Shown here piece after piece: positions 4,216 to 34,528 of a DNA stretch of 37,845 bases (position 1 is the stretch's first letter; each line of letters begins with the position of its first letter). Both the position numbers and the translations under genes were made by a program. The notes under the pieces are model-generated. The model saw only the letters and a program-made list of their open reading frames with translations, did no database searches and was not told where the DNA came from. The DNA is from an uncultured Synergistales bacterium (GTDB lineage: Bacteria > Synergistota > Synergistia > Synergistales > Aminobacteriaceae): NCBI GenBank assembly GCA_905233565.1, contig CAJOCL010000002.1, forward strand, positions 42,058 to 79,902. The letters run 5' to 3'.

Positions 4216-6232
4216 AATACGCGCCCTTTCAATTCTTATATTCATGTTATTCACGTTAAAGGCAGACGCTAAGGAAATAAAAGCAATGACCCCATGGCTT
4301 AACACGAATATTTACGGAATTGTCAGCGAAAGGAATTACAGCCCTGATATAAAATCAGATTATTACGCTAACGTTAATCACGAATGGCTTTTAACCGCAA
4401 AATTAAAGCCCGGACGTACAAGGAACGGAGCATTTGATGAGCTTCAGGACGTAATAAATGACAGGCTCAAAATTATTATGACTGATACAGGCATTGAGGG
4501 TCATGATGCTGAGATAGTCAGGAAGTTATATTCACTTTGGCTTGACTGGGATTCACGAAATTCCGAAGGTCTCGCGGATCTCAGGGAACAGGCCGACAAA
4601 GTAATGAACATAAAGACTATTGACGAATTAAATCAGTATTTCATGTCAGAAGACTGCCTTTATCACGGAACAATGATAGCCGGATTCGTCATAGGCAGGG
4701 ACAATAAGGACTCGGAATCCCATAATCTCGAACTTATTTCGACAGGACTTTCACTCGGCGACTCAGCAGAGTACAAAAAGAGAACGTCAAACGGCGAACG
4801 TACAAAGAAAATGCACGATGCCGAAGTCAGGTACATGCTCAGGAGATTGGGATATACTGAGGAATTTGCACAGGAAATATTAACGCGTTCTTTCCGTTTT
4901 GAGGAAAAAATAGCGGCTCACGAGATGACGCTTCAGGAAGTTTATTCGCCCGAAGCAATCGAAAAAATGTATAACCCCCTGACTATGGACGAACTGCGCG
5001 AAAAATCCCCATTTTTTCCGTTTGCTGACATTATCGCAGCTCATAACGCCGTATCAGATTTCATGAATCTAAACGAACCTGACTGGCTCAAAGCCCTCAA
5101 CGGGATTTACAATTCAGAAAATCTTGAAGATATAAAGGCTTATATGTTAAGCAGCCTTGTAACGGGTTACGTCACCATAACAGATGAGCCGGCATTCAGG
5201 GAACATCAGAGGCTTGCGCGCGAACGTTTCGGAATTTCTGAAAGCAAGCCGGATGATGAACTTGCAGTCGATTTCGTTCATGGCAATCTTTCAGTGCCGG
5301 TGTCAAAAATTTACGTGTCTAAATACGTTCCAGAGAGCGCAAAAAAAGAAGTCGAGGAGATTATCCGCCAGACCGTTAAATATTACAGGTCAATGCTTGA
5401 GAAAGAAGACTGGCTTTCAGAGGCAACCCGGAAAAAAGCAATCGAAAAACTCGACTCAATGCGGCTTAACTGTGCATATCCTGACAAATGGGTAGATTTT
5501 TCGGAATTTGAAATCACTGAAGATATGAATTTTTATGACGCAGTGAAGGCTCTTGAAAAATATAAATTCCGGAAATATTTCCAAGAGCGCCTGAATACGA
5601 AAGTTGACCATGATTTATGGATTAATGATGTCGTTGTCGTCAACGCTTATTATCAGCCGTTAGAAAACTCAATAAACATAATAGCCGGAATAATCGGCGG
5701 AGATTTCTACAATTCAGAAATGAGCCATGAGGAAAAACTCGGCGGTATCGGCATGGTAATCGGTCATGAGATTTCACACGCTTTCGACACAAACGGCGCA
5801 CAGTTCGGAAAGACTGGAAATCTCGAATCCTGGTGGACTGATGAGGATTACGCACACTTCAAGAAACGTTCTGACAAGCTGATAAAATACCTCGACACTT
5901 TCAAGGTTGATGATTCGGGCGACAACTGCAACGGTTCACTGATTCATACTGAAACGATTGCAGACATGGCCGGGATTAAGTCAATGCTTGGGATTGCCGA
6001 AGGCATTGAAGGATTTAATTACGATAAATTTTTCAGGTCATACGCCAGAATATGGAAAATAATACAGACCCGTGAACTTGTCGACATGCGTATAAAAACT
6101 GACGTTCACGCTCTGCCTTATATCAGGGTCAATGCAATAGTTCAGCAGTTCAAAGAGTTCTACGACACTTACGGAATCAAGAAGGGCGATAACATGTTCC
6201 TTGCGCCTGATGAGAGAGTTTCTGTATGGTAA
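4208..6232 (+). CDS. M13 family zinc metallopeptidase (neprilysin/PepO type), exported
   Basis: From the ATG at 4208 the protein is 674 residues, the usual length for bacterial M13 enzymes, and begins with a signal-type segment (MNKIRALSILIFMLFTLKADA). The catalytic set is complete: zinc ligands His-520 and His-524 with Glu-521 in HEISH, third ligand Glu-582 and Asp-586 in ETIAD, and the substrate-binding NAYY at 479-482. The C-terminus ends in a Trp (RVSVW) as the family normally does, so it is not truncated. These enzymes cleave peptides in the periplasm or outside the cell. The start lies inside the end of the propeller gene (ATGAATAA overlap). A hairpin terminator follows at about 6257-6287. 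Confidence 0.92.
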   Translation: MNKIRALSILIFMLFTLKADAKEIKAMTPWLNTNIYGIVSERNYSPDIKSDYYANVNHEWLLTAKLKPGRTRNGAFDELQDVINDRLKIIMTDTGIEGHDAEIVRKLYSLWLDWDSRNSEGLADLREQADKVMNIKTIDELNQYFMSEDCLYHGTMIAGFVIGRDNKDSESHNLELISTGLSLGDSAEYKKRTSNGERTKKMHDAEVRYMLRRLGYTEEFAQEILTRSFRFEEKIAAHEMTLQEVYSPEAIEKMYNPLTMDELREKSPFFPFADIIAAHNAVSDFMNLNEPDWLKALNGIYNSENLEDIKAYMLSSLVTGYVTITDEPAFREHQRLARERFGISESKPDDELAVDFVHGNLSVPVSKIYVSKYVPESAKKEVEEIIRQTVKYYRSMLEKEDWLSEATRKKAIEKLDSMRLNCAYPDKWVDFSEFEITEDMNFYDAVKALEKYKFRKYFQERLNTKVDHDLWINDVVVVNAYYQPLENSINIIAGIIGGDFYNSEMSHEEKLGGIGMVIGHEISHAFDTNGAQFGKTGNLESWWTDEDYAHFKKRSDKLIKYLDTFKVDDSGDNCNGSLIHTETIADMAGIKSMLGIAEGIEGFNYDKFFRSYARIWKIIQTRELVDMRIKTDVHALPYIRVNAIVQQFKEFYDTYGIKKGDNMFLAPDERVSVW

Positions 6233-6256
6233 AACAGGAAAATTAATATAAAAATC

Positions 6257-6287
6257 TCCCTTGAGATTAACTCAGGGGAATTTTTTT
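6257..6287 (+). terminator. Rho-independent terminator after the M13 peptidase gene
   Basis: Stem CCCTTGAG (6258-6265) pairs with CTCAGGGG (6271-6278) around a 5-nt loop, followed by seven T residues. Confidence 0.75.
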
Positions 6288-6333
6288 GTGCTTAAGCTAT
6301 AATGAAATAAAAATTTTGAAGGAAGTATTAATC

Positions 6334-6852
6334 ATGACATTTTCAGAATTAGTAAAATCGCGTTATTCAGTCCGTAAATTTGACGCAAGGCCAGTTGAAG
6401 ATGAAAAATTAAACGCAATCCTTGAAGCAGGAATTTCAGCACCGACCGCAAAAAACGTACAGCCCGTGAAAATCTGGGTTATAAAATCACCTGAAGCCCT
6501 CGAAAAAATAAAGTCAACAACCCCTTTCACATGGCTGAAAAATGTTCCTGTAATTCTCGCTGTCGGCGGAACAACTGAAAGCGCATTCGTAAGGCCGTCC
6601 GATAACAGGAACTTTGAGGACGTTGACGCGAGCATCGTTGCAACACACTTAATGCTTGCAATTCACGCTGAAGGTTTAGGCTCAACATGGATCGGATTTT
6701 TTGACGAACCGAAAGTAAAAGAGCTTTTCCCTGAAATGAAAGATTATGACCTCATTGCCCTGCTGCCTGTAGGTTATCCTGCCGCCGATGCTGAACCTTC
6801 CGACCGCCACGCCCTGAGAAAGAGCAAATCTGAAATGGTGAAATTCCTGTAA
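6334..6852 (+). CDS. Nitroreductase family protein (FMN-dependent)
   Basis: The 172-residue product starts at the ATG at 6334 behind GAAGGAAG. It opens with SRYSVRKFDARPVEDEKL, the flavin phosphate-binding Arg-rich block of the nitroreductase family. It continues with an APTAKNVQP segment and a C-terminal GLGSTWIGFF ... LPVGYP block that contacts FMN. Members are small homodimeric oxidoreductases that use NAD(P)H to reduce nitro compounds, quinones or related substrates in the cytoplasm. At about 170 residues it belongs to the shorter, anaerobe-type branch. A TATAAT at 6298-6303 could be its -10. The next gene starts one base after its stop, so the two form an operon. The physiological substrate is unknown. 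Confidence 0.87.
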   Translation: MTFSELVKSRYSVRKFDARPVEDEKLNAILEAGISAPTAKNVQPVKIWVIKSPEALEKIKSTTPFTWLKNVPVILAVGGTTESAFVRPSDNRNFEDVDASIVATHLMLAIHAEGLGSTWIGFFDEPKVKELFPEMKDYDLIALLPVGYPAADAEPSDRHALRKSKSEMVKFL

Positions 6853-6853
6853 A

Positions 6854-7396
6854 ATGCCCGAATTAATACGCTCATTCGTTGCGGTAAAAATGCCCGGAAA
6901 AACGGCAGATGAGCTTGAAAATTTTCTGGCTGAACTGAGGCCGCTTGCAAAAATACGCTGGGTAAGACGCTCACAGTTTCATATAACCCTTAAATTTCTT
7001 GGTGAAAATACCCGCGAGGTTACGGAGAACGTTAAAGAAGCGTTAATCCCCATGAAAAACTTTGAGCCGTTCACCGTTGAACTTTCGTATATAGGAGCAT
7101 TCCCGAATTTAAGCGCGCCGAAAGTTTTATGGCTTTCGGGGGATAAGGGTGCTGATGAACTTTCTAAACTGTCAAAAAAAGTTAATGACGTTCTTTATGA
7201 AAATGCAGAAATTGAGAGGGACAACAAAAAATTCAAGGCTCATTTGACGCTTGCAAGGCTGAAAGATTCTTATCTTCCTGAAAATCTCGTCAGGAAACTC
7301 GGCGAAGTTCCAAAAATCTCATGGCTTTGTGATGAGTTAGTACTCATGAAAAGCGTATTGACACCTTCAGGGCCGATATATTCAGAATTAATGTAA
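6854..7396 (+). CDS. thpR: RNA 2',3'-cyclic phosphodiesterase (2H phosphoesterase)
   Basis: A 180-residue protein with the two H-x-T motifs that define the 2H phosphoesterase fold: HITLKFLG (His-43, Thr-45) and HLTLARLK (His-130, Thr-132). The spacing and the N-terminal IRSFVAVKMP match the ThpR/LigT family, which opens 2',3'-cyclic phosphates on RNA and was first noted as a 2'-5' RNA ligase. The start is one base after the nitroreductase stop, so translation is probably coupled. The gene ends just before a shared terminator facing the convergent phosphofructokinase gene. Confidence 0.9.
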   Translation: MPELIRSFVAVKMPGKTADELENFLAELRPLAKIRWVRRSQFHITLKFLGENTREVTENVKEALIPMKNFEPFTVELSYIGAFPNLSAPKVLWLSGDKGADELSKLSKKVNDVLYENAEIERDNKKFKAHLTLARLKDSYLPENLVRKLGEVPKISWLCDELVLMKSVLTPSGPIYSELM

Positions 7397-7403
7397 ATAA
7401 AAA

Positions 7404-7440
7404 ATCCCCCTGCCTGAAAAGACAAGGGGATAAATTTTTT
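7404..7440. terminator. Terminator between convergent thpR and phosphofructokinase genes
   Basis: ATCCCC and GGGGAT form the outer stem around a partly paired loop. A T-run follows on the plus strand and an A-run precedes it, so it can serve both directions. Confidence 0.7.
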
Positions 7441-8667
7441 CTAGCTGTACAGCCTTTCAACAGCTCCGTGAACTTCTTCAAGTTTCGGGATATATTCCTG
7501 CTTGAATCTTCCGAAGCATACATCCATCTGCTCATAGAACGCGACACTCTCAAGCCCGACGAATCTCTGTGCGATTGCCTCGTTTGTCGGCATGTAACGG
7601 ATTTTTCCGTCATACATTTTAACGACCGTAACGCCGCTGACTCCCTGTTCAAGCAATATGACCGCAGCTGCTCCGATCTGCTTTCCGAAGTTTACGTCAT
7701 ATGCTGATGTTGAACCGCTCCTGACTATGTGGCTTGGGATAACTTCCCTGATTTCAGGAATTTCAAAAACGCCCGGAACATACATTCCAGAAGTCTTCAT
7801 GAACTGCCTGATTTCAGGGTCTTCACGCATCATATCTTCAAGGGTTTCTTTAACGAATCTTCCTGCGCCTGCAAGTCTAGGATGCCCGAATGAGTCAGTC
7901 TTTGCACCGCCGCCGTCCGAGAATAATTTTCCGTCTTCACCCCTTACGCCTTCGGCAACAACGATTGTGTAAGTTCCCGCGTGAACGTCAGAGTTAAGAA
8001 TACGCCTGATGTAATAATGCTTGAGATGAGCATAAACGGCGTTGAAATCGACGGGTACTTCGGGAATCAATATGCAGTCGGCATCGGCAGCAATTCCGCC
8101 CCTGAATGCCGTGTGTCCTGCGTAACGCCCGAAAACTTCAATGACCATTATACGGTTATGAGTAGTTCCGGTAGTTTTGAGGTCGTCAACAATGTTAGCA
8201 ATTTTGTTGATTGCCGAGTCTCCGCCGACTGAATAAGTCTGAAGGTCCAGATCCATTGTCTTTGGGGCATGTACGCAGGGGATTCCGTGTTCTGAAAGGT
8301 CAACGACAACGCTTCCCGTGTCATCACCGCCGGAAATCAAAAGGCCGTCAAGATTGTGCTTGCGAAGCCCCATCATGATTCTGTCGTATTTGTCGGGGTC
8401 GTTAATCTTTGAGATTTTCACGCGGCTGTGTCCTGCATCGCTGCCGGCGAACTGTGAATTAACATGATCGGTGCGCTCCTCGTCAAGTTCAACGAGATGA
8501 TCAAAATTGACCAGATTATACAGTCCTGCGTAACCGTTCGGGATTGTGAAAGTCCTCATTCCGCGCATTAAAGCCGCTTTTGCTGCTCCCCTGATTACGG
8601 CGTTAAGCCCTCCGCAGTCTCCGCCTGATGTGATTATGCCGATGTTTTTCATTTTTCTTTCTTCCAA
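7441..8667 (-). CDS. pfp: 6-phosphofructokinase, probably pyrophosphate-dependent
   Basis: A 408-residue PFK-fold enzyme that phosphorylates fructose 6-phosphate. The N-terminal SGGDCGGLNAVIRG is the phosphate-donor loop. Two positions separate ATP from PPi enzymes: GGDD (residues 113-116 from the TTG start) in place of GGDG, and PKTMD (135-139) in place of PGTID. Both are the pyrophosphate-type residues in established PFK comparisons. The catalytic Asp (139) is kept, but the usual TIDND reads TMDLD, so the Asn is a Leu. FGRYAGH replaces the common MGRHAG. Two starts are possible: TTG at 8667 with AAGGAGAG 9 nt upstream, or ATG at 8652 with GGAAG 8 nt upstream. The gene runs divergently from tRNA-Ala. 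Donor preference is inferred. Confidence 0.9.
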   Translation of the reverse strand: MEERKMKNIGIITSGGDCGGLNAVIRGAAKAALMRGMRTFTIPNGYAGLYNLVNFDHLVELDEERTDHVNSQFAGSDAGHSRVKISKINDPDKYDRIMMGLRKHNLDGLLISGGDDTGSVVVDLSEHGIPCVHAPKTMDLDLQTYSVGGDSAINKIANIVDDLKTTGTTHNRIMVIEVFGRYAGHTAFRGGIAADADCILIPEVPVDFNAVYAHLKHYYIRRILNSDVHAGTYTIVVAEGVRGEDGKLFSDGGGAKTDSFGHPRLAGAGRFVKETLEDMMREDPEIRQFMKTSGMYVPGVFEIPEIREVIPSHIVRSGSTSAYDVNFGKQIGAAAVILLEQGVSGVTVVKMYDGKIRYMPTNEAIAQRFVGLESVAFYEQMDVCFGRFKQEYIPKLEEVHGAVERLYS

Positions 8668-8771
8668 GATTAATTACTCTCCTTAAAACAATGTGAAAAT
8701 TTCTATTGAGTATTTGACAATTATACAATAGACACAAAATAAGACATAACATAACTTTCTTATATATTTGC

Positions 8772-8801
8772 TTGACATTTAGGGGGGTAATTGCGTATAA
8801 T
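8772..8801 (+). promoter_or_regulatory. Consensus sigma-70 type promoter for tRNA-Ala
   Basis: TTGACA at 8772-8777 and TATAAT at 8796-8801 are perfect matches with an 18-bp spacer, about 21 bp before the mature tRNA 5' end. Confidence 0.85.
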
Positions 8802-8821
8802 CTGCAACGTTGCTTCACGAT

Positions 8822-8898
<77 letters not shown>

Positions 8899-8930
8899 GA
8901 TAATAACACACGATAAATCGTTTGAATATA

Positions 8931-8958
8931 AAAAAACCGCTCACAAGGCGGTTTTGTT
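8931..8958 (+). terminator. Terminator after tRNA-Ala
   Basis: AAAACCGC and GCGGTTTT form an 8-bp stem around a 7-nt loop, ending in a T-rich tail. Confidence 0.75.
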
Positions 8959-8989
8959 GTATCTTAGACTGCGTAACGTAAATGATGTA

Positions 8990-9033
8990 AGGGCAGGAAG
9001 CCCCCGCTTATAAGCGGGGGTTGTTAGTTCACC
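8990..9033 (+). repeat. Perfect stem-loop resembling an IS200/IS605-type right end
   Basis: A GGCAGGAAG lead is followed by the perfect palindrome CCCCCGCTTATAAGCGGGGG (9001-9020), then TTGTTAGTTCAC. The layout GGAAGC, stem-loop, TTCAC matches the second copy at about 32676-32712 on the minus strand and the general form of IS200/IS605 right ends. The stop codon of the TamB-like gene (TCA at 9029-9031 on this strand) lies inside the terminal TTCAC. No transposase is next to it, so it would be a solo remnant. It could instead simply be a terminator, although no T-run follows. Confidence 0.4.
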
Positions 9034-12000
9034 GCCCGATATTGAAAATGTTGTCAATTAACTGCTGTTTGAACTGGTCGCTCGTGCTTTCCTCCTCAAT
9101 GCTGGGATCTCCCGGCCCTGTCGGTATTCTCAGGTTAAGTTTGAACTGTGCGCCGTCTTTCTGTTTTTCCTCGTCCCTGTTGAGCACGTTAATCGGCAGG
9201 AAATCATCAATAGGCTTCGTAATCTTTATGTTGAGTATGTGAAGTTTATCCCATGAATTTGCAAGCGTAAATGACACGTTCTGAAAATCCCTGCGCTTTA
9301 TTCCAAGCACCCTGCCCGCAGCGTCCCTCAAAACGTTCTGGGCAAGGCTGCCCGTCATGTACTGGAAAACTCCCTTCATTGCGCCGAGTAACTGATCAAG
9401 TATTTTCAGGTCGAATCTTCCGTCGCATAAAAGACGCAGTCCCTTACCCTGAAGACCCGTTGAACCGTTGACCGTGAAATATCTGTAAAGCGGTTCATCT
9501 CTTCCGGCTCTCGCGCCTGTTCCGGGATTTAAGAAAAGATCCTGGCCGTTCCAGAAAAATGAACCGTTGATTTTTTCAAAACTTATTCTCTTTGTCGGCG
9601 TTATGCTCTCGATTGCCTTTATCTTGTGAATATATCCCGGCCCCGTAACAAATTTCCCTTCAGCAAAACTGAGATTTATATACTGCGTTGATGTCCCCTT
9701 CATGCTGACCTGAGCATCAACAGAGCCTACAAGTTCGCCTTCAGGCATGAAAGGAGCTGCGAGCTTCCCGAAATCAAGGTGTGATACTTTTACGTTGCCT
9801 TTCCATTCGGTTTCATCTTTGCCGATGTCAGCAGTGAAGACTGAATTTATAACGCCTCCGCTGAGTTTTGCACTGCCGTTTTTCATTTCGATTCTGTTTT
9901 TTGACGTTAAGAACGTTACGGGCAGTGAAATATCCTGAATTTTTATCTTTTTCATTATGTTTATTGTTTTTGACTTAGCGTTGATTAATATCGGTGCATT
10001 TTCCCTCGTGCTTCCCTCAACGTGAACAACTGCGAAACCGTCAGCAATCCCGGCCATTTCCGGCATTTGTGTCTGAATCGCGCTGCCGATGTCAAGCGGC
10101 TTTGTGTCGACAACGTAATCAACAACGCCGTTTCTAATCTTTATGTCTATGTCTGATTCAGGGCTGAACTTGTCAATTCTTGCCTTAGCGGTGATCATGA
10201 AGTGATTTTGCTGAGGGGATCTGACTTTCAATGCAACGTCATTAATTTCTGATTTTCCGTATAATATCGGCCTCGTTAATTGAAGGTCTAAAACGGGCTG
10301 GCTTAATGAGCCTCTGATTCCTGCCCTTGCGTCAATTGCGCCCTCGATCGGCGGTTTTTCCATAAAATTTTTGAGAAGTGCTTTCAGGTCTAAATGCTTC
10401 AGCGTTGTATCAATATCCATTTGTGATTGCATTAAATTTCTCATATTGGGACTGATTACCCCTACGCCTTTTATTGTTGAGCCGTTTAATTGAATGTCAA
10501 TATCTTTTATTGTTATTGCCCTCATGTTTCCCCTTGCGTCAATCAACGCGCTTGGGACATTGACGAATCCTGCTGCCTTGAGATTTTCAGCCCTGAGCTT
10601 TGCCCTTATTGAAGAGGCGTTCAGAGTTCCGCCGGCTTCGAGAGCTGCATTTTTCAGTGTCATTACGTCCCCTGCCTTTATGTCTGAGGCATGAAGGTCA
10701 GCCCTTACGATTCCGTTGCTCAGATTTCCTTTTATTGATGTCGTTCCGCTGACTTTTCCTGAAACCGGCATGGATTGATCCTGTAATTTAAGAGCCGTCA
10801 TTAACTGTGAAATATTGATTCCTGAAGTTGACGCGCTTATATCGAGTGCAGGGTTAGAAGTGTTTTTGATGTTTACCGTTCCCCTGAGATTTAATTTTCC
10901 GCCGGGAAGCGAGGCCGTTGCGCCGTTTATGGTGATTATGCTGTTTCTGAAATTTGCGGGTATGTCAGCATTTCCGAAGGTCATTCCCGAATAACCTGCG
11001 TTCCTTGCGTTGAATAAAACATTTGCGATTATGCTGTGAATATCCGTGTATTTTCCCGAAGCGTCAGCAGTCAGCGAGTATCTTCCCTGAACGTCCTTTA
11101 ACTGCGGTATGAATCTCAGGTCTACATTCCTTGCTTCAGCCTCAGCCCTAAATTCAGAAGTTTTTGTGTCGGCATGTGCCTTGAGTGCCATATGTCCGCC
11201 CGGAAATTCTGCCCTTGCGTCCGAGACTGTGATTACTCCGTCATGGAATGTTACGGGAATATCGGCGTTAATCCTGTTGATATTCGTGTAGCCTGCATTC
11301 CTTGCCGTTAATACAGCGTCAGCCCTTATTGAATTTATTCTGTTGTAATTTCCCGAAACGTCAGCATTAAGCGCGTAAGTTCCTGAAACCTGCCTTAAAT
11401 CCGGAATTGCTTTCAGTTCGAGATCGTGTGCTTTTGCGGCTGCCCTGAAATTTCCGTGCTTCAGGTCAGCTTTGGCCTGAGCAGTTATTAAACCGCGTCC
11501 CAAGTTAGCTTTCAGGCCTGAAAGTTCCGCCGTTTCAGCCTTGTAATCATAGTTCATTAAAGCCTCAATGCCCGATAAAGTTATCCCGTACGCGCCGAGC
11601 CTGTCGGATGTTAATTTCCCGTGTACTTTCAGCGAGTCCATGACATCAGACACTCTTGCGGTTGCCGTAATTTTCCCGGAGGGCTTAACGTCTTTTATCA
11701 TTGCCGATAATTGAGGGATTGCCCTGAACAGCGAGGGAATATCAAGATTTACGATTGACATTACTATACCGTCAGGCTTTACGTTCCCTTGAGAATCATG
11801 AACTGCTTCAGCCCTTGCGAATAATTTACCGCCGAAGATTTTTCCGCCCATTGAAATTTGAGGCGTTACGTTGGGAGTAAGTTTTACGTGAGCCGAAAGA
11901 TTTTCGACCGCGTTAATGCCCATTGCCGATATGCCCGGAATATCAGCAAGAGCGTTAGCCTTTGTTCGCGTGAAGATGTCTTGAATAATGTTATCAGTAA

Positions 12001-13108
12001 TCTGAGTGTCAACGTTGAATTTTATATATCCGTTTTCGCCCCTGAGACCGATTTCAGGTGCAAACATCGAGCCGATTTCAGAAAGTGAAATATTTCTGGC
12101 TTCACCGTTTGCAGCGAATTTCATTTTTTCAATATCTCCTGATGCGCTGAGATTTAATCCTGCTGCCTTAGTGTTGAGGACTACATTGTCAAGCGTGAAT
12201 GTTGAACCGCTAAATCCGAACGGAAGGCGGAAATTCAGCGGGATATTCATAACTTCAGCGCGGGGCATTGAGATTATTCCCGATGCTGAGATACTGCCGT
12301 CCCTGCTCTCGGCAAAAATACGGCCGTCAATGCGTCCTGATACGTCAATGCTTGACGGCGAGAACTGCATGAACTCTTCAAGCGACAGCGCCGTTAAATC
12401 AAGCCTTAATTTCAGAGGCTCAAAAGTTCCCGAAAATTTCCCGGTGCCTTTGTTGCCGATAAGAATATCTGACGAGATTATTTCCAGCGGTGAAAAATTG
12501 ACGTTTGCCGAAGTCCTTAACGGTAAAACATTCTCGCCAGAAACAACTTCAGCATTGAGCAAAAATCTGCCCGCCTCGTTCAGCGAAAGTTCATCAAGCA
12601 GTAAATCCGCGTAAGGCGTTCCGAAAAAAATATCCTGAACTGCTATATTTGCCGGATTAATCTTTATGCCCTCCAGTGATAATGGGCTGTTTTCCTCCTC
12701 TTCGTCCTTATTTTCATCTTCAGGTGAGGCGAAATGATTCGACAATGCCATGACGCTGTCCAAGTCTGAGCTTATGCCCCTGACGTTCAGGGATTTTATA
12801 AAGGGGAGGCCGTTCATTCCTGACAATACTAAATCCCAGTCGGGACTGACGGAAGCGTGGTTAAGGACGAATAAATCCTTGTCGCCGGAGATTAAGCGCA
12901 GCCCGTCAAGTGAATAACCGTTCCTGACAGAGCCGTTAATTGCTTTGATTTCGATTTTCAGGGGGTCAAGAAAGAAGTTGCCGGCTTTTTCCGCGAGTGG
13001 CTGAACAAGCCATGAGCCTGTATCGAACCAGAATAACGCAGCTCCTGCGGCTATTAATATAATCAAGAGATATATAAAATATTTTATGACCGAACCAATA
13101 AAACGCAC
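9029..13108 (-). CDS. TamB/AsmA-like inner-membrane-anchored envelope protein
   Basis: About 1,359 residues from GTG at 13108 (AGGAAG lies 11 nt upstream); a GTG at 13120 would add four residues but leaves no room for a ribosome site. One N-terminal membrane helix (residues about 10-30) is followed by a very long beta-rich region of alternating short strands, as in TamB, YhdP and other AsmA-like proteins that form a hydrophobic groove bridging the envelope for phospholipid transport or outer-membrane assembly. A block near the middle is repeated about every 100 residues: FRAIPQL, then LKAIPDL, then LRFIPQL, each followed by a G-x-(Y/I)-(A/S/T)-(L/A)-x-A pattern. The C-terminal region (RFDLKILDQLL... 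DFQNVSFTLANSWDKLHI) resembles the AsmA C-terminal domain. It implies an outer membrane. Its stop codon falls inside a repeat-like hairpin, so the extreme C-terminus may have been altered. Confidence 0.82.
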   Translation of the reverse strand: MRFIGSVIKYFIYLLIILIAAGAALFWFDTGSWLVQPLAEKAGNFFLDPLKIEIKAINGSVRNGYSLDGLRLISGDKDLFVLNHASVSPDWDLVLSGMNGLPFIKSLNVRGISSDLDSVMALSNHFASPEDENKDEEEENSPLSLEGIKINPANIAVQDIFFGTPYADLLLDELSLNEAGRFLLNAEVVSGENVLPLRTSANVNFSPLEIISSDILIGNKGTGKFSGTFEPLKLRLDLTALSLEEFMQFSPSSIDVSGRIDGRIFAESRDGSISASGIISMPRAEVMNIPLNFRLPFGFSGSTFTLDNVVLNTKAAGLNLSASGDIEKMKFAANGEARNISLSEIGSMFAPEIGLRGENGYIKFNVDTQITDNIIQDIFTRTKANALADIPGISAMGINAVENLSAHVKLTPNVTPQISMGGKIFGGKLFARAEAVHDSQGNVKPDGIVMSIVNLDIPSLFRAIPQLSAMIKDVKPSGKITATARVSDVMDSLKVHGKLTSDRLGAYGITLSGIEALMNYDYKAETAELSGLKANLGRGLITAQAKADLKHGNFRAAAKAHDLELKAIPDLRQVSGTYALNADVSGNYNRINSIRADAVLTARNAGYTNINRINADIPVTFHDGVITVSDARAEFPGGHMALKAHADTKTSEFRAEAEARNVDLRFIPQLKDVQGRYSLTADASGKYTDIHSIIANVLFNARNAGYSGMTFGNADIPANFRNSIITINGATASLPGGKLNLRGTVNIKNTSNPALDISASTSGINISQLMTALKLQDQSMPVSGKVSGTTSIKGNLSNGIVRADLHASDIKAGDVMTLKNAALEAGGTLNASSIRAKLRAENLKAAGFVNVPSALIDARGNMRAITIKDIDIQLNGSTIKGVGVISPNMRNLMQSQMDIDTTLKHLDLKALLKNFMEKPPIEGAIDARAGIRGSLSQPVLDLQLTRPILYGKSEINDVALKVRSPQQNHFMITAKARIDKFSPESDIDIKIRNGVVDYVVDTKPLDIGSAIQTQMPEMAGIADGFAVVHVEGSTRENAPILINAKSKTINIMKKIKIQDISLPVTFLTSKNRIEMKNGSAKLSGGVINSVFTADIGKDETEWKGNVKVSHLDFGKLAAPFMPEGELVGSVDAQVSMKGTSTQYINLSFAEGKFVTGPGYIHKIKAIESITPTKRISFEKINGSFFWNGQDLFLNPGTGARAGRDEPLYRYFTVNGSTGLQGKGLRLLCDGRFDLKILDQLLGAMKGVFQYMTGSLAQNVLRDAAGRVLGIKRRDFQNVSFTLANSWDKLHILNIKITKPIDDFLPINVLNRDEEKQKDGAQFKLNLRIPTGPGDPSIEEESTSDQFKQQLIDNIFNIGR

Positions 13109-27943: not shown

Positions 27944-28969
27944 TCAAGTTTTTAGTTTATGAGCAATTCCGTTTAACTTTTCTGCTATTTCATTAAATTT
28001 TTGGCTTAAATCCAAAGTTGAAACGCCGATTTTGTTTCCGCTCATTTCATATTCATGCTCAGGCTGTATTAATTCATCCGTCCTTGCATATAATATCAGT
28101 CCTGATACTTCACGCGGCTTCATGGCCAAGTCCGCATTCTTTACATATGTGAACATCTGATACAGATTTCCCGAATGTATTTTGTTCGTGTTGAACTGCT
28201 TTTGTGTATTATGAGAATAATACTTCGCATCAATAATCAATACTTTTTCTTTGTACTCAAGCATTATATCCGTCTGCATTACAGGCAGCATTAACCTAAA
28301 ATCATTGTCAACCGCCCATTTAATCTGAGACGCACTCGTCTTAAATTCCGGAAATTCTTTTCGGTAATATTCAAAAATAAATTTTTCATACAGCCTGCAC
28401 ATTCTCTGCTCGTCTAAAAAATCCATTAAACGTACTTTCCCGTCAGAATTTGTCTGTAACAAGCCTTTTATAATCATGTAGCATATTGATATTAAGATTT
28501 CGTACGTATGATTATTTTTGTCATAATTCTGATTCCAGTTTATATTGTGAATGTCAAGCGGCTCAACTTCATTAAAGAATATTAACAGCTTCCGCAGTTC
28601 TTTCTTTCTGCTCTTAGATATATCCGTGTGCATGAGCATTCCCAAAGTTGTTTTAATAATCCGGTTCTTGTATGAGTTCAACGAAAAATCATAATAAGAA
28701 CATATAAGTTTACTTTTCATTATACTCAGCGTTTTTATTGAAGCAGCAATATCAATTCTGCCCCTCAGCAATGATAAAGCGTCAGTCTTCCCGGTATATT
28801 CACAGTTAAGTCCGCGCTTTAACTGCATTGAAATGCCTTTCGATAGAATCGCCGCGCATAATTCAGCAACGTTCTTAAACTCTTCAAGCTCTACCCTCTT
28901 ATATCCCTGCTCATCTAAAAATCTGAAAGCGTAGGCAAGCATATAATAAATGTTTTTTATCTGTATCAC
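27944..28969 (-). CDS. mcrC: McrC-like restriction endonuclease subunit (type IV, modified-DNA restriction)
   Basis: A 341-residue protein. The N-terminal MIQIKNIYYMLAYAF is characteristic of the McrC family, and the C-terminal half carries a PD-(D/E)xK nuclease core: TDIMLEY (Asp) followed by VLIIDAKYY (Asp-x-Lys). McrC is the nuclease that partners the McrB motor; together they cut DNA carrying modified cytosines. The start codon is GTG, overlapping the TGA of mcrB as GTGA, so translation is coupled. The region is visibly A+T-richer than the flanking metabolic genes, consistent with an acquired defence module. It stops just before the terminator of the convergent surface protein gene. Confidence 0.92.
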   Translation of the reverse strand: MIQIKNIYYMLAYAFRFLDEQGYKRVELEEFKNVAELCAAILSKGISMQLKRGLNCEYTGKTDALSLLRGRIDIAASIKTLSIMKSKLICSYYDFSLNSYKNRIIKTTLGMLMHTDISKSRKKELRKLLIFFNEVEPLDIHNINWNQNYDKNNHTYEILISICYMIIKGLLQTNSDGKVRLMDFLDEQRMCRLYEKFIFEYYRKEFPEFKTSASQIKWAVDNDFRLMLPVMQTDIMLEYKEKVLIIDAKYYSHNTQKQFNTNKIHSGNLYQMFTYVKNADLAMKPREVSGLILYARTDELIQPEHEYEMSGNKIGVSTLDLSQKFNEIAEKLNGIAHKLKT

Positions 28970-31104
28970 TTGATTACGTCCCTTAAATTTTCAGACCAGT
29001 TCTTTACTTTTGCAGGTTCGTCAAACCAGTATTCCTTCAGAAGCGGGATTATCTCATATTCCACAATGTCAGAAAGTTCCCTATAACTTGCAGAGTTAAG
29101 ACTGCAAAAATAGCTGTGGCCTATGCAAAATCCCTCACCGAGTGACTCATCTTCCGTTATGGCAGAGTTCAATTCTTTAATTTTATTTATTAAATTATTG
29201 AATTTTTGACTGTTAAAGTCAGCACTGTATTTCTGAAATCCTTCTGAATCAAAACCCGGCTTTATCCCGAAAAATGAAAAACGCCTCCTCAAAGCATAAT
29301 CAAGCATGGCCAAGCTGCGGTCAGCCGTGTTCATTGTTCCGATTATGTATACGTTTGAGGGAACTGAAAAGCTTTCATCTGAGTACATGAGTTTTAGTTT
29401 TATGCCGCGTTTATCGTTTTCAATAAGCATGAATAACTCACCGAAAATCTGGCTTAAATTGCCCCGGTTAATCTCGTCAATGATGAAGAAGTAACTGTTA
29501 TCGCTGTCAATTTCCGCAGTCTTGCAGAAATTATAGAATGCCCCGCGCTTCAAATCAAAGCCCGACTCTGACGGCCTGAAACCCATAACAAAATCTTCAT
29601 AAGAATAGCTCTGATGAAACTGTACCATCATAACGCGGTTAGGATCTTTTACGCCCATTATTGAATAAGCCAGACGCTTTGCCGCAAAAGTTTTGCCGAC
29701 TCCGGGTGTGCCCTGAAGAATAACATTTTTCTTTTTTCTGACTAAGTTTACGAGTGTGTTGTAATTATCTTCAGTCATGAAAACTTGATTCAGAAAATCT
29801 TTAGCAGTATACGGTTCATAATTGATTACGGCTTCATCTTCAGCGTCATCAATATCATCCTCAAAAAGTGCCTTTATATTTTCAACGTAATCATTATACG
29901 GCGTTATATCCGTCAGCGTTTTCATCGGGGTTTGAGCAGGAGCCGGCCATTCTCCGTTATGTGTCCAGGTTACTTTTCTGATATTTTTATATTCTTTACG
30001 GGAATCATCAAATTTATAATCAGACGCAACAACTCCTCGCCCTATTATGGTATTTCTGCCTTTTTTAGCAAAAATAACATCTCCGATTTTCATATCGTGA
30101 ACGAACTGCCAAGTTGCATGAGAATCCATTATGTATGTACGGTCAGGATCAAACACTGCCTGCATGGCCTCACTTATTGCTGTTTTTGACGGATATTGAG
30201 ACAAGTCGCCTATATCGTCCCAGCCTATAGCCATAATGCCGTTTTCATAACATTCATTCCAAATGCAGGCGCTGCTGCCGGGAGAGTAAAGCCAGTAGTG
30301 TGTTACTTCCGCGTCAGGAATGGACTCAATGACGGGCGGTGTATGGCGTTTCTGTTCGTCGACTTCCTGAAAATAACGCCACGCCTCCGCGCTTAATTCT
30401 TTGAAGTCTTTGAACATGCTGTCTTTGCTCTGAAGGTAAGTACGGATTTTTTCAGTGATTTCAAAATACTTTGCGGACGAAATTTTATATTCAGGAGCAG
30501 GGAGCGTATTTACAACAGATACAGGAATTTTCCCGGATTCGTAAATGTACCATGTATTGCGCTGGTCTAAATTCAGGAAGACATCTGGCGCAATCCAGAA
30601 AAGAGCCATTGTAATTTTGCTGTTAGCAATGCCCCTTTTGTTAATCGCAATGTCAAAATATTTAGAGAACGCGGTTTTATTTTCTTCTGAAGGTGATTTA
30701 GCGTATTCAAGCGAAGATGCGAACAATTCCCAAAGGTCATCAATATCATTGCTTTCACGATCTCCAATAAAAAGATAATATGTAGCGTTCTGAGCGTTTA
30801 ATATCGGTATGCCTGCAAATGCGGTCGGTACTTGGGCAGAAATATTAAATATTTTTGCTACAGCCTGAAGAATTTTAACACGGTTTGAATCAGTAATATT
30901 TTTGTTGAACAGGCCGAAGAAAGTAAACGGGTCAATATCAACAAGATTATTATTGCGCTCAAGTGTCGGCAATTTAATGCCCGTATCGTTGTAAATTTCC
31001 TTTACTTTGTCAATAAGTTCATCACGTTTTGCCTTGAAAGTGAGGAGCTTTTCCGCTAACTCTTCATAAAAAATTACCCATTCAAACTGATTTTTACTGC
31101 TCAT
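28966..31104 (-). CDS. mcrB: McrB-like AAA+ GTPase with N-terminal reader region and probable EVE-like domain
   Basis: From the ATG at 31104 (AAAGGAG 6 nt upstream) the protein has 712 residues; a longer frame upstream crosses a terminator. Residues about 1-250 resemble the N-terminal region of many McrB-type ATPases (AGIPILNAQNATYY, DVFLNLDQRNTWY). Residues about 266-400 contain HYWLYSPGSSA, GIMAIGWDDIGDL, KIGDVIFAKKGRNTIIGRG and KVTWT, a layout typical of EVE/PUA-type domains that bind modified bases. The C-terminal motor has Walker A GTPGVGKT (465-472), Walker B FFIIDEINRGNLSQIFGE and the McrB signature MNTADRS (591-597). McrB hexamers recognise modified DNA and drive cleavage by McrC. The fusion suggests the EVE-like part is the modification reader; the exact base is not known. 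Confidence 0.92.
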   Translation of the reverse strand: MSSKNQFEWVIFYEELAEKLLTFKAKRDELIDKVKEIYNDTGIKLPTLERNNNLVDIDPFTFFGLFNKNITDSNRVKILQAVAKIFNISAQVPTAFAGIPILNAQNATYYLFIGDRESNDIDDLWELFASSLEYAKSPSEENKTAFSKYFDIAINKRGIANSKITMALFWIAPDVFLNLDQRNTWYIYESGKIPVSVVNTLPAPEYKISSAKYFEITEKIRTYLQSKDSMFKDFKELSAEAWRYFQEVDEQKRHTPPVIESIPDAEVTHYWLYSPGSSACIWNECYENGIMAIGWDDIGDLSQYPSKTAISEAMQAVFDPDRTYIMDSHATWQFVHDMKIGDVIFAKKGRNTIIGRGVVASDYKFDDSRKEYKNIRKVTWTHNGEWPAPAQTPMKTLTDITPYNDYVENIKALFEDDIDDAEDEAVINYEPYTAKDFLNQVFMTEDNYNTLVNLVRKKKNVILQGTPGVGKTFAAKRLAYSIMGVKDPNRVMMVQFHQSYSYEDFVMGFRPSESGFDLKRGAFYNFCKTAEIDSDNSYFFIIDEINRGNLSQIFGELFMLIENDKRGIKLKLMYSDESFSVPSNVYIIGTMNTADRSLAMLDYALRRRFSFFGIKPGFDSEGFQKYSADFNSQKFNNLINKIKELNSAITEDESLGEGFCIGHSYFCSLNSASYRELSDIVEYEIIPLLKEYWFDEPAKVKNWSENLRDVIK

Positions 31105-31132
31105 AAAAAATCTCCTTTTTTTAATATAAAAA

Positions 31133-31160
31133 TTGGGAGCGATAGAAAAAACACTCCCAA
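31133..31160 (-). terminator. Hairpin between terD and mcrB
   Basis: TTGGGAG (31133-31139) and CTCCCAA (31154-31160) pair; T-runs occur on both sides. On the minus strand it would end the terD transcript, so mcrBC probably depends on read-through or its own promoter. Confidence 0.7.
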
Positions 31161-31184
31161 AAATTTTTTTTTTCAAGTTAAAAT

Positions 31185-31763
31185 TTAGACGTTCACGCCG
31201 AAGTTAAGGCATAATGCACGTAAACCGCCCTTGAAGCCTGAACCTATAGCGTTGAACTTCCATTCGCCAGCGTTCCTGTAAATTTCGCCGACAACAACGG
31301 CCGTTTCAATCGAAAAATCTTCGCCCAAATCATAACGGATTAATTCCTTGTTATTTGCCTCGTCCATAATTCTTATATAGGCGTTTGAAACCTGCCCGAA
31401 ATTCTGCTTGCGTTCTTCGGCCTCATGAATGGTTACAGTGAAGGCGATTTTTTCGACATTTGAAGGGATTTTGCTGAGGTCTATTTTTATCTGCTCATCG
31501 TCCCCGTCTCCTGCGCCCGTCAGGTTGTCGCCCATGTGCTGAACTGCTCCTGATGAATGCTTGAGGTTGTTGTAGAAAACAAAATCAGAATCGCTGAGAA
31601 CTTTTCCGTTTGAACCGAGTACGAATGCCGCCGCGTCAAGATCGAAACTTGCTCCGCCGTCATACTTGTTTACATCCCAGCCTAAGCCGACAAGTATTCT
31701 TGACAGTCCGGGATTCCCTTTCGTAAGGTCTACTTTCTGACCTTTGAATAAACTGATTGCCAT
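31185..31763 (-). CDS. terD: TerD family protein
   Basis: A 192-residue protein, the usual TerD length. It begins [20 protein letters not shown] and contains [28 protein letters not shown] and the C-terminal [11 protein letters not shown] segment, which are diagnostic. The acidic residues in the D-x-D and GDGDDE segments bind Ca2+ in characterised TerD domains. TerD proteins are cytoplasmic, linked to tellurite resistance, stress and phage resistance, often in multi-gene ter clusters with a membrane or phosphoryl-transfer partner. Here only one ter gene is present. GGAGG lies 7 nt before the ATG, and an extended -10 (TGTTATAAT, minus strand 31816-31808) lies about 45 bp upstream. A terminator separates it from mcrBC. 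Confidence 0.95.
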
Positions 31764-31807
31764 AATCCTGCCTCCTTTGTGAAAATAGGGGTTAATATAT
31801 TAAAATT

Positions 31808-31816
31808 ATTATAACA
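31808..31816 (-). promoter_or_regulatory. Extended -10 (TGTTATAAT) of terD
   Basis: TG, one base, then TATAAT on the minus strand, about 45 bp before the terD ATG. No clear -35. Confidence 0.45.
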
Positions 31817-31818
31817 TC

Positions 31819-32535
31819 TCATAAATTGAAATATATAAACGGGTTATAGCTTGAACTTATAACTTCAAATGTTGAAATAATGAACATCAAGCAAAGCCAT
31901 AATGATTCCATAAATTTATGACGGCTGAAAATGTTTTTCATTACGGGCGAAATTCCAAGCAGGGACGCAAAAATAACGAGCCATGAACTTTTTATGTATA
32001 TAATAAATCCGCTGTCACAGAAATTATTGCCGTTAAGGCCGAAGAGTGAAGCAATGTAGCTTATTCCTGACGTTATACTGTCAGACCTGAATATTACCCA
32101 AGCAATCATAACGCAAAACATTGTTATAAAATGTCCGGGTTTTATTCCTGTTTCACGCTCAAACACTAAAAGCACGAAATAGAACAGTCCCCATAGTATG
32201 AATGTCCAGTTTGCGCCGTGACATATACCCGTAAGAAGCCAGACGGTAAATATATTTAACAGCCAGCGCGAATGATTTATCCTGTTTCTGCCCATAGGGA
32301 TATAAACATAATCCCTGAACCATGTACTCAACGATATATGCCACCTGTGCCAAAATTCAGAAATGCTTGAAGCCATGTAGGGATAATTGAAATTTTCCTC
32401 AAAGTGAAATCCGAACATTAAGCCCAGACCTATGGCCATATCGCTGTAACCTGAAAAGTCAAAATATATCTGGAACGTGTAAGCTGTTATTCCAAGCCAT
32501 GACATCATTACTGAAGGGTTAATGATATATCCGAA
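31819..32535 (-). pseudogene. C-terminal half of an MBOAT O-acyltransferase (5'-truncated)
   Basis: Only about half of an MBOAT protein is present. The frame reads FGYIINPSVMMSWLGITAYT, then DFSGYSDMA, EFWHRWHISLSTWFRDYVYIP and LTGICHGANWTFILWG, and runs to a natural-looking C-terminus. The N-terminal ~220 residues are missing and no ribosome site precedes the first ATG (32508). The usual WHG reads CHG, though the catalytic His remains. The intact MBOAT gene at 1498-2922 is a diverged relative, not a recent copy. The frame is fused at about 32535 to a fragment of a DHHW/SGNH gene in another phase, so this is a deletion product. Probably non-functional. Confidence 0.8.
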
Positions 32536-32675
32536 TACAGAAATTCCGCTCCTTTTTCGCGGCAGAAGTCAGAAAATTCTTTTACGGCTCTAACAGTATA
32601 AGCAATATCCTGACTTTCAGTATATATTGCTAAATTCTCTAAATAACCGTCATGAAATTTCATAACAGGGTTATA
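32508..32675 (-). pseudogene. Internal fragment of a DHHW/SGNH-type acylation partner gene
   Basis: Read on the minus strand from 32675, the frame gives YNPVMKFHDGYLENLAIY... AVKEFSDFCREKGAEFLY, resembling the segment of DHHW-family proteins just before the active-site region (V-x-K-x-x-(D/N)-G-Y-L ... FCKEKG-(I/A)-x-FLY). It then hits a stop after crossing into the MBOAT remnant. Its upstream boundary coincides exactly with the TTCAC end of the IS-like remnant. With the MBOAT half it marks a second, dead O-acylation locus. Family assignment rests on about 50 residues. Confidence 0.5.
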
Positions 32676-32940
32676 GTGAAGCCTCACACGACTAAAGTCG
32701 AGTGCTTCCAGCCGTCTTAATTGGCCGGACTGCCTGTCTGCGTATTCGGTCTAATCTCAGTACACAGAACCGAAATTCCGATAACCGCAAAAAGACTATA
32801 ACACAGATACAGGTGCGGATGCTTCTCCTGAACACAAGGGAACTTTTGCCCTCATGCTCAACCCTACTGTCACCAGCAAGGATTTGTATCGCCGGTCTAG
32901 TGCCTGCTTGCGCATTATACCTCTGGCTACACCTACAGGC
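32676..32940 (-). mobile_element. Probable IS200/IS605-type remnant: right end and degraded TnpB C-terminus / omegaRNA-like region
   Basis: On the minus strand this ends with GGCTGGAAGCACTCGAC, TTTA, GTCGTGTGAGGCTTCAC: a GGAAGC lead, a stem-loop (CTCGAC/GTCG...GAG with a small bulge) and a terminal TTCAC, the typical right-end form of IS200/IS605 elements and of the 3' end of their omegaRNA. Upstream lies a frame ending VTVGLSMRAKVPLCSGEA and a stop near 32794, weakly like a TnpB C-terminus. A long-range stem TTCGGT/ACCGAA lies between. No intact tnpA or tnpB is present. The same right-end layout occurs at 8990-9033. Assignment rests on structure and boundary, not on a database match. Confidence 0.45.
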
Positions 32941-33023
32941 ACAAAGCACATGCAAAACATTATCACGCACAGAAAAAGCACCGCCGTAATTCTTTCAGGC
33001 TTAGTTCTCATTATTTCAAGCAT
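32941..33023 (-). pseudogene. Possible N-terminal fragment of the disrupted DHHW/SGNH gene
   Basis: MLEIMRTKPERITAVLFLCVI (20 residues shown in part) starts at 33023 or 33011 with a basic start and one membrane helix, like the anchor of DHHW proteins, and then runs into the IS-like sequence. No good ribosome site is visible. The family cannot be shown from such a short piece. Confidence 0.25.
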
Positions 33024-33082
33024 TATATAACGTTCTATTATAAGAAATTTTCTTTTTTGAATTATATCATTATATAAAAAAA

Positions 33083-33111
33083 CTGCCCCCAGTCATTAAG
33101 ACCAGAGGCAG
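33083..33111 (-). terminator. Terminator after the NCS2 permease gene
   Basis: On the minus strand CTGCCTCTGGTC pairs imperfectly with GACTGGGGGCAG, followed by TTTTTTTATA. Confidence 0.7.
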
Positions 33112-33124
33112 GCTATATTTTAAG

Positions 33125-34528
33125 TTAATTTTCTCTTGGCTTTACGTTAATTCCGCGTTCTTCGTCAGTTCCGGGTATCAGTGAGTCGCAGACTGCCGCG
33201 CATACTCCAGCAACTGCCATCGGTGTTTTCAGAACTGCCCAGAGCATTCCGCCGAGAGTGTGCATTATTTGGGACTGCCCCTCATTCATGAAGAGATTCT
33301 GATTTGCTTCGACCCAGCCGGGAAGCCCAAGAGCCATTAAGAACGCAAAACCGATGATTAATATATTCCTCTGGCTGCTCATATCCGCCCTCATTAAGAC
33401 CTGAATACCCATCGCGCCGATCGTTCCGAATAATGCTATATATGCTCCTCCGATTATCGGTGAAGGCATCGTCGCAATCAATGCGCTGAGTTTTCCGACA
33501 AAGCTCATCAGTATCAATATAACCGCTCCCGTCCTGACTACTATCCTTGAGGCAACTCCCGTCAGTCCGATTAAGCCTATATTTTCAGTGTATGACGTTG
33601 TCCCGACCGAACCGAATACGCCGGATAACGCACAGCAGAGACCTTCGGCACCTATACCCCTGCTTATTGTATCTGAGTCGGGATCGTCAACGCCTGAAGC
33701 GTAAGATACTGAATGATAATCGCCGATACTCTCAATCATTGTCGCAAAGAAACCTGCAAGCAGTGCTGCAAATGACATTAAGCTGAACTTAGGCACTCCC
33801 CAAGGGATAATAACGTTCTTAAAGTCCCTGAGCCAAGGAGCTTCAGTTACTCGCGCAAGATTTATATACGCAGGGTGGGTAGGCTCAAATACTCCCTTCA
33901 ATGAAAGCGCAAGGCAGGCAAGATATGTTATTACGATTGCAAGAAGTATCGCAAAAATGTTTATATACTTGTTCTTTAATACTAAGCTGAAAAGGAAGAT
34001 TAATATTACTACCGCAAGCGATGCAGGCCAGTAATTCGCCGCGTTGCCCTGAACTGCCGTTCCCGCAAGCGAGAAGCCTATCGCCATTATTACCGGGCCG
34101 ATTACTACGGGCGTTATTACCCTGCGGATTATTCCGACTATCTTGCTATAGCCTATCACTGATAATATTATTCCTCCGGCTATCAGTCCGCCGCCTAAAT
34201 ACTGCATTATGACTTCAGGACCTGCAGCTTTGTAAAGAGCTATGACGGTCATGACTGAAGGGATAAAAGAAAAGCTCGATCCCTGTACTATTGGTAGTCC
34301 TGAACCGAGCTTTTTGCTTGTCTGAATTAGTGTTGCTACTCCCATTCCGAAATAAACGCAGGATATTAACGAGGCAATTTGCAATGTATCCATTCCCATT
34401 GCCGGACCGAATATCAAAGGAACTAGAGTAGTCGAACCGAATAGTGTTAAAACGTGCTGCGCTCCTGATAGAAGCATTATTAAAAACGGGGGCCTGTCAT
34501 TGATACCGTAAACCATCTTTCTGGCCAT
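33125..34528 (-). CDS. NCS2 (nucleobase:cation symporter-2) family permease, uracil/xanthine type
   Basis: A 467-residue membrane protein with about 12-14 helices. It opens with PPFLIMLLSGAQHVLTLFGSTTLVPLIFG, typical of UraA/UapA-like permeases. It carries the mid-protein FFATMIESIGDYHSVSYASG block with the conserved Glu of helix 8 and the signature motif TENIGLIGLTG. Members import uracil, xanthine or uric acid with protons or Na+. GGAGG lies 7 nt before the ATG at 34528. The 100-bp leader shows no recognisable purine riboswitch. The gene has its own terminator and follows aspS with a terminator in between, so it is a single-gene unit. The nucleobase cannot be decided from sequence alone. 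Confidence 0.92.
   Translation of the reverse strand: MARKMVYGINDRPPFLIMLLSGAQHVLTLFGSTTLVPLIFGPAMGMDTLQIASLISCVYFGMGVATLIQTSKKLGSGLPIVQGSSFSFIPSVMTVIALYKAAGPEVIMQYLGGGLIAGGIILSVIGYSKIVGIIRRVITPVVIGPVIMAIGFSLAGTAVQGNAANYWPASLAVVILIFLFSLVLKNKYINIFAILLAIVITYLACLALSLKGVFEPTHPAYINLARVTEAPWLRDFKNVIIPWGVPKFSLMSFAALLAGFFATMIESIGDYHSVSYASGVDDPDSDTISRGIGAEGLCCALSGVFGSVGTTSYTENIGLIGLTGVASRIVVRTGAVILILMSFVGKLSALIATMPSPIIGGAYIALFGTIGAMGIQVLMRADMSSQRNILIIGFAFLMALGLPGWVEANQNLFMNEGQSQIMHTLGGMLWAVLKTPMAVAGVCAAVCDSLIPGTDEERGINVKPREN

Follow-up and report, generated by a model that had tools for sequence, protein, structure and literature searches.

A PATE-like IS605 element of Halanaerobium hydrogeniformans is described as a left end (LE) of 28 nt, the last 58 nt of tnpB and a right end (RE) of 160 nt (PMC7290912). 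In ISDra2, the reRNA is reported to consist of the tnpB 3′ end and the RE, with a flank-derived guide of ~16 nt, and TTGAT is given as the TAM of ISDra2 TnpB (PMC8612924). Acylation pairs that join an MBOAT protein to an SGNH partner, as in PatA/PatB, are already known (PMC12148441). Among the matches listed from the titles and abstract openings of open-licence literature, we found no covariation test of tnpB-less elements; PMC10969869 makes no mention of IS605, IS200, TnpB or PATE, and PMC12558985 none of MITE, PATE or truncated.

The locus described here lies in a 37,845-nt stretch of DNA, called the window below, within the 201-kb contig C2 of a 2.02-Mb genome assembled in 34 contigs and 96.5% complete. 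It is an ordinary pseudogene locus, the wreck of a two-gene DHHW/MBOAT pair with a small transposon remnant and deletions, and the original prediction for it mostly holds. We consider it very probable that a DHHW gene was struck by a tnpB-less mini-element and then suffered deletions, leaving a pseudogene cluster that makes neither whole protein. By family, MBOAT and DHHW/AlgX-like pairs of this kind are predicted to act in envelope or exopolysaccharide O-acylation.

Fragments of a DHHW gene and an MBOAT gene

Translation of the minus strand in three frames, from 33040 to 31819, recovered all four parts at the places named for them in the original prediction. The features of the locus, with the evidence for each, are as follows.

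33111-33083, minus strand: terminator-like hairpin 3′ of the permease gene (pattern scan, weak evidence)
33069..33111, minus strand: region of a promoter-like pair ending TATAAT at 33069 (pattern scan, weak evidence)
32915..33023, minus strand: 5′ fragment of the DHHW/AlgX-like gene, with start and N-terminal anchor, MLEIMRTKPERITAVLFLCVIMFCMCFVPVGVARG (tblastn, alignment, colinear profile match)
32914..32935, minus strand: putative deletion junction, where the DHHW 5′ fragment meets internal sequence of the mini-element (onset of similarity to the G017 and G032 copies)
32676..32914, minus strand: left-truncated, tnpB-less mini-element of IS200/IS605 type, PATE/MITE-like (identity to other copies)
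32676..32885, minus strand: structured RNA resembling an omega/reRNA scaffold, formed by a part like the tnpB 3′ end and the RE (folding and covariation)
32676..32709, minus strand: RE terminal hairpin, GGAAGCACTCGACTTTAGTCGTGTGAGGCTTCAC, GGAAGC...TTCAC, with the element end at 32676 (right-end comparison)
32539..32675, minus strand: DHHW middle fragment, YNPVMKFHDGYLENLAIYTESQDIAYTVRAVKEFSDFCREKGAEFL, upstream of the TDHHW segment (identity to relatives, home-made profile)
32535..32539, minus strand: DHHW/MBOAT fusion point, TGTAT (onset of DNA similarity, codon context in relatives)
31819..32538, minus strand: MBOAT C-terminal half, residues ~203-441 of 441-442 (PF03062, identity, alignment)

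The first of the four parts had been proposed as a separate, possible anchor peptide, and this claim fell: tblastn, alignment and profile identify it as the N-terminus of the DHHW gene itself. This 35-residue peptide matched the DHHW starts of relatives in tblastn (53% over 30 aa in L031 and 56% over 25 aa in L028), and the inner limit of the 5′ fragment (32915) is uncertain by ~20 bases. Beyond the element, the DHHW frame resumes at 32675, the base next to TTCAC, exactly as predicted, and the translation of 32675-32539 is 36-47% identical to DHHW proteins from 10 loci, from residues ~109-130 onward. A home-made DHHW profile scored the middle fragment at 44.5 bits (E 2.7e-12, in locus L045), and a Pfam scan of this piece alone returned no family. 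The profile built from the DHHW proteins of seven relatives gave one colinear match spanning the element, at contig positions 75068-74583 (window 33011-32526), with an E value of 3.4e-16, three internal stops and profile positions 1-157 of 419. Because a single colinear match covers both sides, the same gene flanks the element, which was thus inserted there. The pieces within these profile positions are all of the DHHW protein that the window holds; a whole protein with TDHHW is absent, and the TDHHW segment of relatives aligns past the fusion point.

In intact relatives, a DHHW protein of ~422 aa is encoded directly downstream of an MBOAT protein of ~441 aa. The DHHW protein of L031 scored 36.1 bits against PF14286 (DHHW) and 50.4 bits against PF16822 (ALGX), both above the cut-offs. 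A PF14286 search of the source genome gave no match and is uninformative, since control genomes were equally without one. Two open reading frames, of 92 aa (32692-32970) and 75 aa (32796-33023), were rejected as genes; both cross the element junction, and a Pfam scan of each returned no family.

The last part is, as claimed, what remains of an MBOAT gene, its C-terminal half, read in a different phase from the DHHW frame. It forms one open frame of 249 codons and matches PF03062 at 61.5 bits (E 1.1e-16) over positions 168-296 of 337, with the N-terminal half absent and no complete MBOAT domain in the window at this locus. The protein is 68% identical to L030 and L031, and C replaces the otherwise invariant W that precedes the conserved His (CHGANWTF), with the His itself kept. 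Across 236 aligned columns, the window sequence differs in six where the other 15 sequences agree and each of those 15 carries 0-4 such private changes, a modest excess because the window is among the more isolated sequences (best identity 0.742). Estimates of dS against the same 15 were undefined in eight cases and 1.17-2.21 in seven, so that synonymous sites were saturated or undefined and dN/dS was dropped; two loci with a split MBOAT frame fell outside the set used for private changes and dS because of its score limit. The 249-codon open frame implies that the decay is recent or that the frame is still constrained. Continued translation of the MBOAT half into a functional protein of 229 aa, starting at the ATG at 32508, would agree with the open frame, the retained His and the 68% identity to intact MBOAT, but such a protein would lack ~200 N-terminal residues, the invariant W and an unbroken DHHW partner, and we find this reading scarcely credible.

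DNA similarity to the MBOAT genes of relatives begins at 32538 (query position 863) in 11 matches among those listed, and identity among the matches listed is 69-80%. The letters TGTAT at the fusion point are a possible microhomology, as a DHHW Tyr codon and MBOAT Val-Phe codons could share them.

Upstream of the DHHW start, the first promoter hexamer of the pair ending at 33069 sits, by pattern scan, within the terminator-like hairpin. The permease and TerD genes that flank the locus were never found together in L020, L022, L131 and L132, which are short stretches of 1.9-6.5 kb.

Two other gene pairs were seen elsewhere in the window. At 27944-31176, an McrB-like AAA-type gene adjoins an McrC-like gene (translations, judged by eye), a candidate restriction-type defence pair. 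At 470-2928, a second MBOAT gene, which is intact, is accompanied by a downstream gene of 342 aa that has no Pfam family above cut-off; the two are possibly another acylation pair.

Mini-element copies in the genus

The original prediction had named a right end of IS200/IS605 type, GGAAGC-hairpin-TTCAC, and 21 distinct copies among the loci fetched, counting the window copy, define this end at 32709-32676; the search pattern itself required TTCAC. Downstream DNA could be read for 20 of these right ends, and the flanks have nothing in common beyond a few bases; the window copy and a copy on contig C7 of the same genome share the first four, tata. The window copy carries the conserved RE hairpin with a fixed end that characterizes a non-autonomous IS200/IS605 element. 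The LE hairpin, present in the copies of relatives, is missing, and the window piece is a truncated remnant. Left ends in 10 distinct other copies lie immediately 3′ of TTGAT (eight copies) or TTGAA (two copies), letters that the left-end pattern did not contain; the left flank of the window copy is deleted.

The window element was 96% identical to two G002 copies over 211 bases, 92% identical to the G001 copy (window 32885-32676), 90% identical to the copy at G017:C236 (346 nt, LE hairpin and RE included) and, over 112 bases, 98% identical to the copy in its own genome at C7:1-112, a contig edge. Identities of 96% (G002) and 98% (own C7) to other copies show that this piece is not a chance resemblance. 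For the G017 and G032 copies, similarity to the window begins at 32914 (query position 487), and TGTAGCCA, which by eye is shared just upstream of this junction, could be a microhomology.

Five copies have both ends fitting the patterns, four without tnpB (333-346 nt, in G017, G002, G008 and G025) and one with tnpB (1462 nt, on contig C12 of the source genome). This four-in-five proportion is not a rate, because four more tnpB-bearing copies have left ends off the pattern (G022, G017:C137, G025:C2 and G002:C154, the last cut by a contig end). Complete mini-elements are present in four or more genus genomes, and a query with the G017 mini-element found matches in at least 12 of 43 genus genomes, some of them to tnpB-bearing copies and three (G034, G036 and G020) short and weak only. 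The remnant had been read as IS200/IS605-like, with TnpB similarity expected. Its IS200/IS605 type stands, but those copies nearest to it whose left parts can be read are tnpB-less mini-elements, and probably, to judge from these copies, there was no tnpB to delete at the window locus; for the C7 copy (98%), which lies at a contig edge, the tnpB status cannot be judged.

Contig C7 (L002, G000:C7:1-112) begins inside a copy of the right part of the mini-element. This edge, together with several G032 and G063 matches at contig ends, indicates that the repeat seems to break assemblies. A mosaic made by misjoining reads at the repeated element would be in keeping with an assembly in 34 contigs and with a 98% identical copy at a contig edge; against such a chimera, the same gene continues in the correct order across the element and the point where DHHW meets MBOAT falls outside the repeat, and we regard it as very unlikely.

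The predicted similarity to TnpB or omegaRNA in 32676-32940 was borne out by the C12 element, whose tnpB 3′ end and RE share 74% DNA identity with the window element, and by the covarying fold described below; an Rfam scan of 31500-33400 with E values up to 1 returned no family. The source genome (G000) has nine matches to PF07282, the TnpB C-terminal domain (L163-L170). The TnpB-like protein of C12 (L003) scored 67 bits against the NCBIfam model guided_TnpB (NF040570), below the cut-off of 100, and gave no Pfam family and, by sequence, no solved structure; its relative in G025 scored 17.7 bits against OrfB_IS605, below the cut-off of 30.5. We assign the C12 protein, by sequence, as a further, divergent TnpB beside the nine PF07282 matches. 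No Y1 TnpA (Y1_Tnp) was found in the source assembly, and 15 of the 43 genus genomes have one.

A covarying fold in copies with and without tnpB

The 210 nt of the window element fold with a minimum free energy of −81.5 kcal/mol (z −5.24). We aligned 12 copies, comprising the window copy, five other tnpB-less copies, four tnpB-bearing copies and two at contig edges. In this alignment, 97.9% of the cells of 63 predicted pairs were standard pairs, and 25 of the 63 pairs had changed on both sides. When partners were slid by 1-3 columns as a control, 37.0-42.5% of cells paired and 2-7 pairs had double changes. Of five measures compared with 500 shuffles, four had values that no shuffle attained, and the fifth, the number of further pair types, was matched in 113. 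As the sequences are related and the structure was derived from the same alignment, both the slide and the shuffle controls lean towards the fold. The window row keeps 62 of the 63 pairs.

Restricting the alignment to five rows (the window, G002, G017, G001 and G008) left nine pairs with double changes and 8 broken cells of 315. These nine come from two rows only, G008 with six and G017 with three, and three of them are also found in tnpB-bearing rows and may therefore predate the loss of tnpB. Folding and covariation reveal a conserved fold of the tnpB 3′ end and RE that resembles an omega/reRNA scaffold.

One reading of this fold is that the tnpB-less mini-elements are guide-RNA genes whose structure is kept because TnpB from elsewhere uses them in trans, in which case the immobile window remnant would still make a guide RNA against intact DHHW alleles. 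We think this unlikely. When the source genome was searched for further copies of the sequence that such a guide would target, only the locus itself was found.

Gene order and the history of the locus

Loci from named genomes were analysed as the best 80 of 585, and among these the nearest named relatives were Synergistales/Synergistaceae MAGs from reindeer and goat, in a set from which the window's own genome may be absent. The MBOAT gene was followed by a DHHW gene in 57 of the 80, 22 had no adjacent DHHW match, and one, L058 from a Planctomycetia MAG, had the reverse order. Within the genus, 16 loci (one per genome) were classified, with 13 in which the MBOAT gene is directly followed by DHHW, three without an adjacent pair and none reversed; judged by length, L046 and L047 appear to be contigs G035:C27 and G001:C93. 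The window has DHHW and then MBOAT, opposite to 13 of 13 genus pairs and 57 of 58 named-genome pairs.

Several genus loci contain additional copies. In L128 (G065:C30:161000-178000, at 3177-12160), one MBOAT gene heads a tandem array of six DHHW-type genes, of which the first is split in two frames, and tandem DHHW copies also occur at G062:C9 (L130) and G016:C65 (L129); from their gene content, arrays of the L128 type appear to be an expansion in which the SGNH-like partner multiplied and the MBOAT stayed single. L126 (G004:C59) has, at about 4829-9350, an MBOAT-DHHW pair and then a second MBOAT, matched in two separate pieces and belonging to another subfamily (36-44% identity). At G013:C14, a distant pair has the DHHW-type gene before the MBOAT gene (24-29% and 40-45% identity).

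Judged by these alignments, comparison with relatives shows that the element inserted into the DHHW gene immediately before 32675 and that its left end has been lost. The original prediction of insertion followed by deletions therefore survives in part: the insertion before 32675 and later deletions stand, but the present order could not have been obtained from the usual MBOAT-DHHW operon. The arrangement itself was seen in no relative among the matches listed and the best 80 of 585 loci, and hence none was seen that had this sequence without an insertion sequence. In the history that we propose, a tnpB-less mini-element of IS200/IS605 type, presumably moved in trans by a TnpA of an ancestor that is absent from the present assembly, would have entered the DHHW/AlgX-like gene and ended directly before the TAT codon at 32675. 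One deletion would then have taken 75-95 DHHW codons and the left ~100 bases of the element, and a second would have fused DHHW at codon ~158, out of frame, to codon ~203 of MBOAT, removing the catalytic part of DHHW and the N-terminal half of MBOAT.

Because the order is reversed, insertion and deletion in the usual operon do not suffice, and before the second deletion the locus would need to have been either a local variant with DHHW ahead of MBOAT or an MBOAT-DHHW pair duplicated in tandem. On either route the fusion falls at TGTAT (32539-32535). The matches listed included no near relative that keeps the locus as it was before the deletion. If DHHW preceded MBOAT and was driven by a promoter of its own, located after the permease terminator, a single deletion would yield the fusion. 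This history takes the fewest steps, is consistent with the terminator-like and promoter-like sequences upstream of the DHHW start (themselves weak), and has parallels in the distant G013:C14 pair and in L058; set against 0 of 13 adjacent genus pairs in this order, we give it somewhat less than an even chance. With a doubled MBOAT-DHHW pair, the deletion would instead have fallen between the first DHHW and the second MBOAT, with the outer genes lost later. We hold such a duplication to be possible but doubtful. Genus loci do duplicate, as in G065 (six DHHW-type genes), G062 and G016 (tandem copies) and G004 (MBOAT-DHHW-MBOAT), but the second MBOAT of G004 is of another subfamily, and the single DHHW profile match in the source genome means that the DNA beyond the MBOAT stop yielded no second DHHW piece. 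Nor was an MBOAT 3′ end detected upstream of the DHHW start, where the score of the locus's own MBOAT end was reached by 346 of 500 shuffles and those of three relatives' ends by 95, 96 and 197 of 500; the MBOAT end of a fourth relative matched over 10 bases, as well as 14 of 500 shuffles did, and this match sits in the terminator.

As a history of gene loss, the locus is one more case in which envelope-acylation genes were lost through a small transposon and deletions. The main interest lies in the mini-element family rather than in the mosaic: within one genus, tnpB-less copies with a covarying fold occur beside tnpB-bearing relatives with the same fold. With this family, one can test whether TnpB receives guides in trans from non-autonomous IS200/IS605 elements, and with the window piece whether an immobile remnant still acts as a guide.

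Compared with ISDra2 TnpB and its reRNA, as far as the published account describes them, the family is alike in having an RNA region that combines the tnpB 3′ end with the RE, a flank as would-be guide and left ends beside TTGAT; it differs in that the mini-element is without tnpB, in that the C12 TnpB of the source genome is divergent, and in being known here from sequence alone. The relatives' MBOAT gene adjoins an AlgX/DHHW SGNH-like partner, as in the PatA/PatB-type pairs reported to date, whereas in the window both genes are broken and their order is reversed. With the Halanaerobium PATE-like element, by its published description, the genus mini-elements share the LE hairpin, the absence of tnpA, the terminal portion of tnpB and an entire RE; they differ from it in that complete copies occur in at least four genus genomes, the window copy is without the LE, and the fold has here been tested for covariation.
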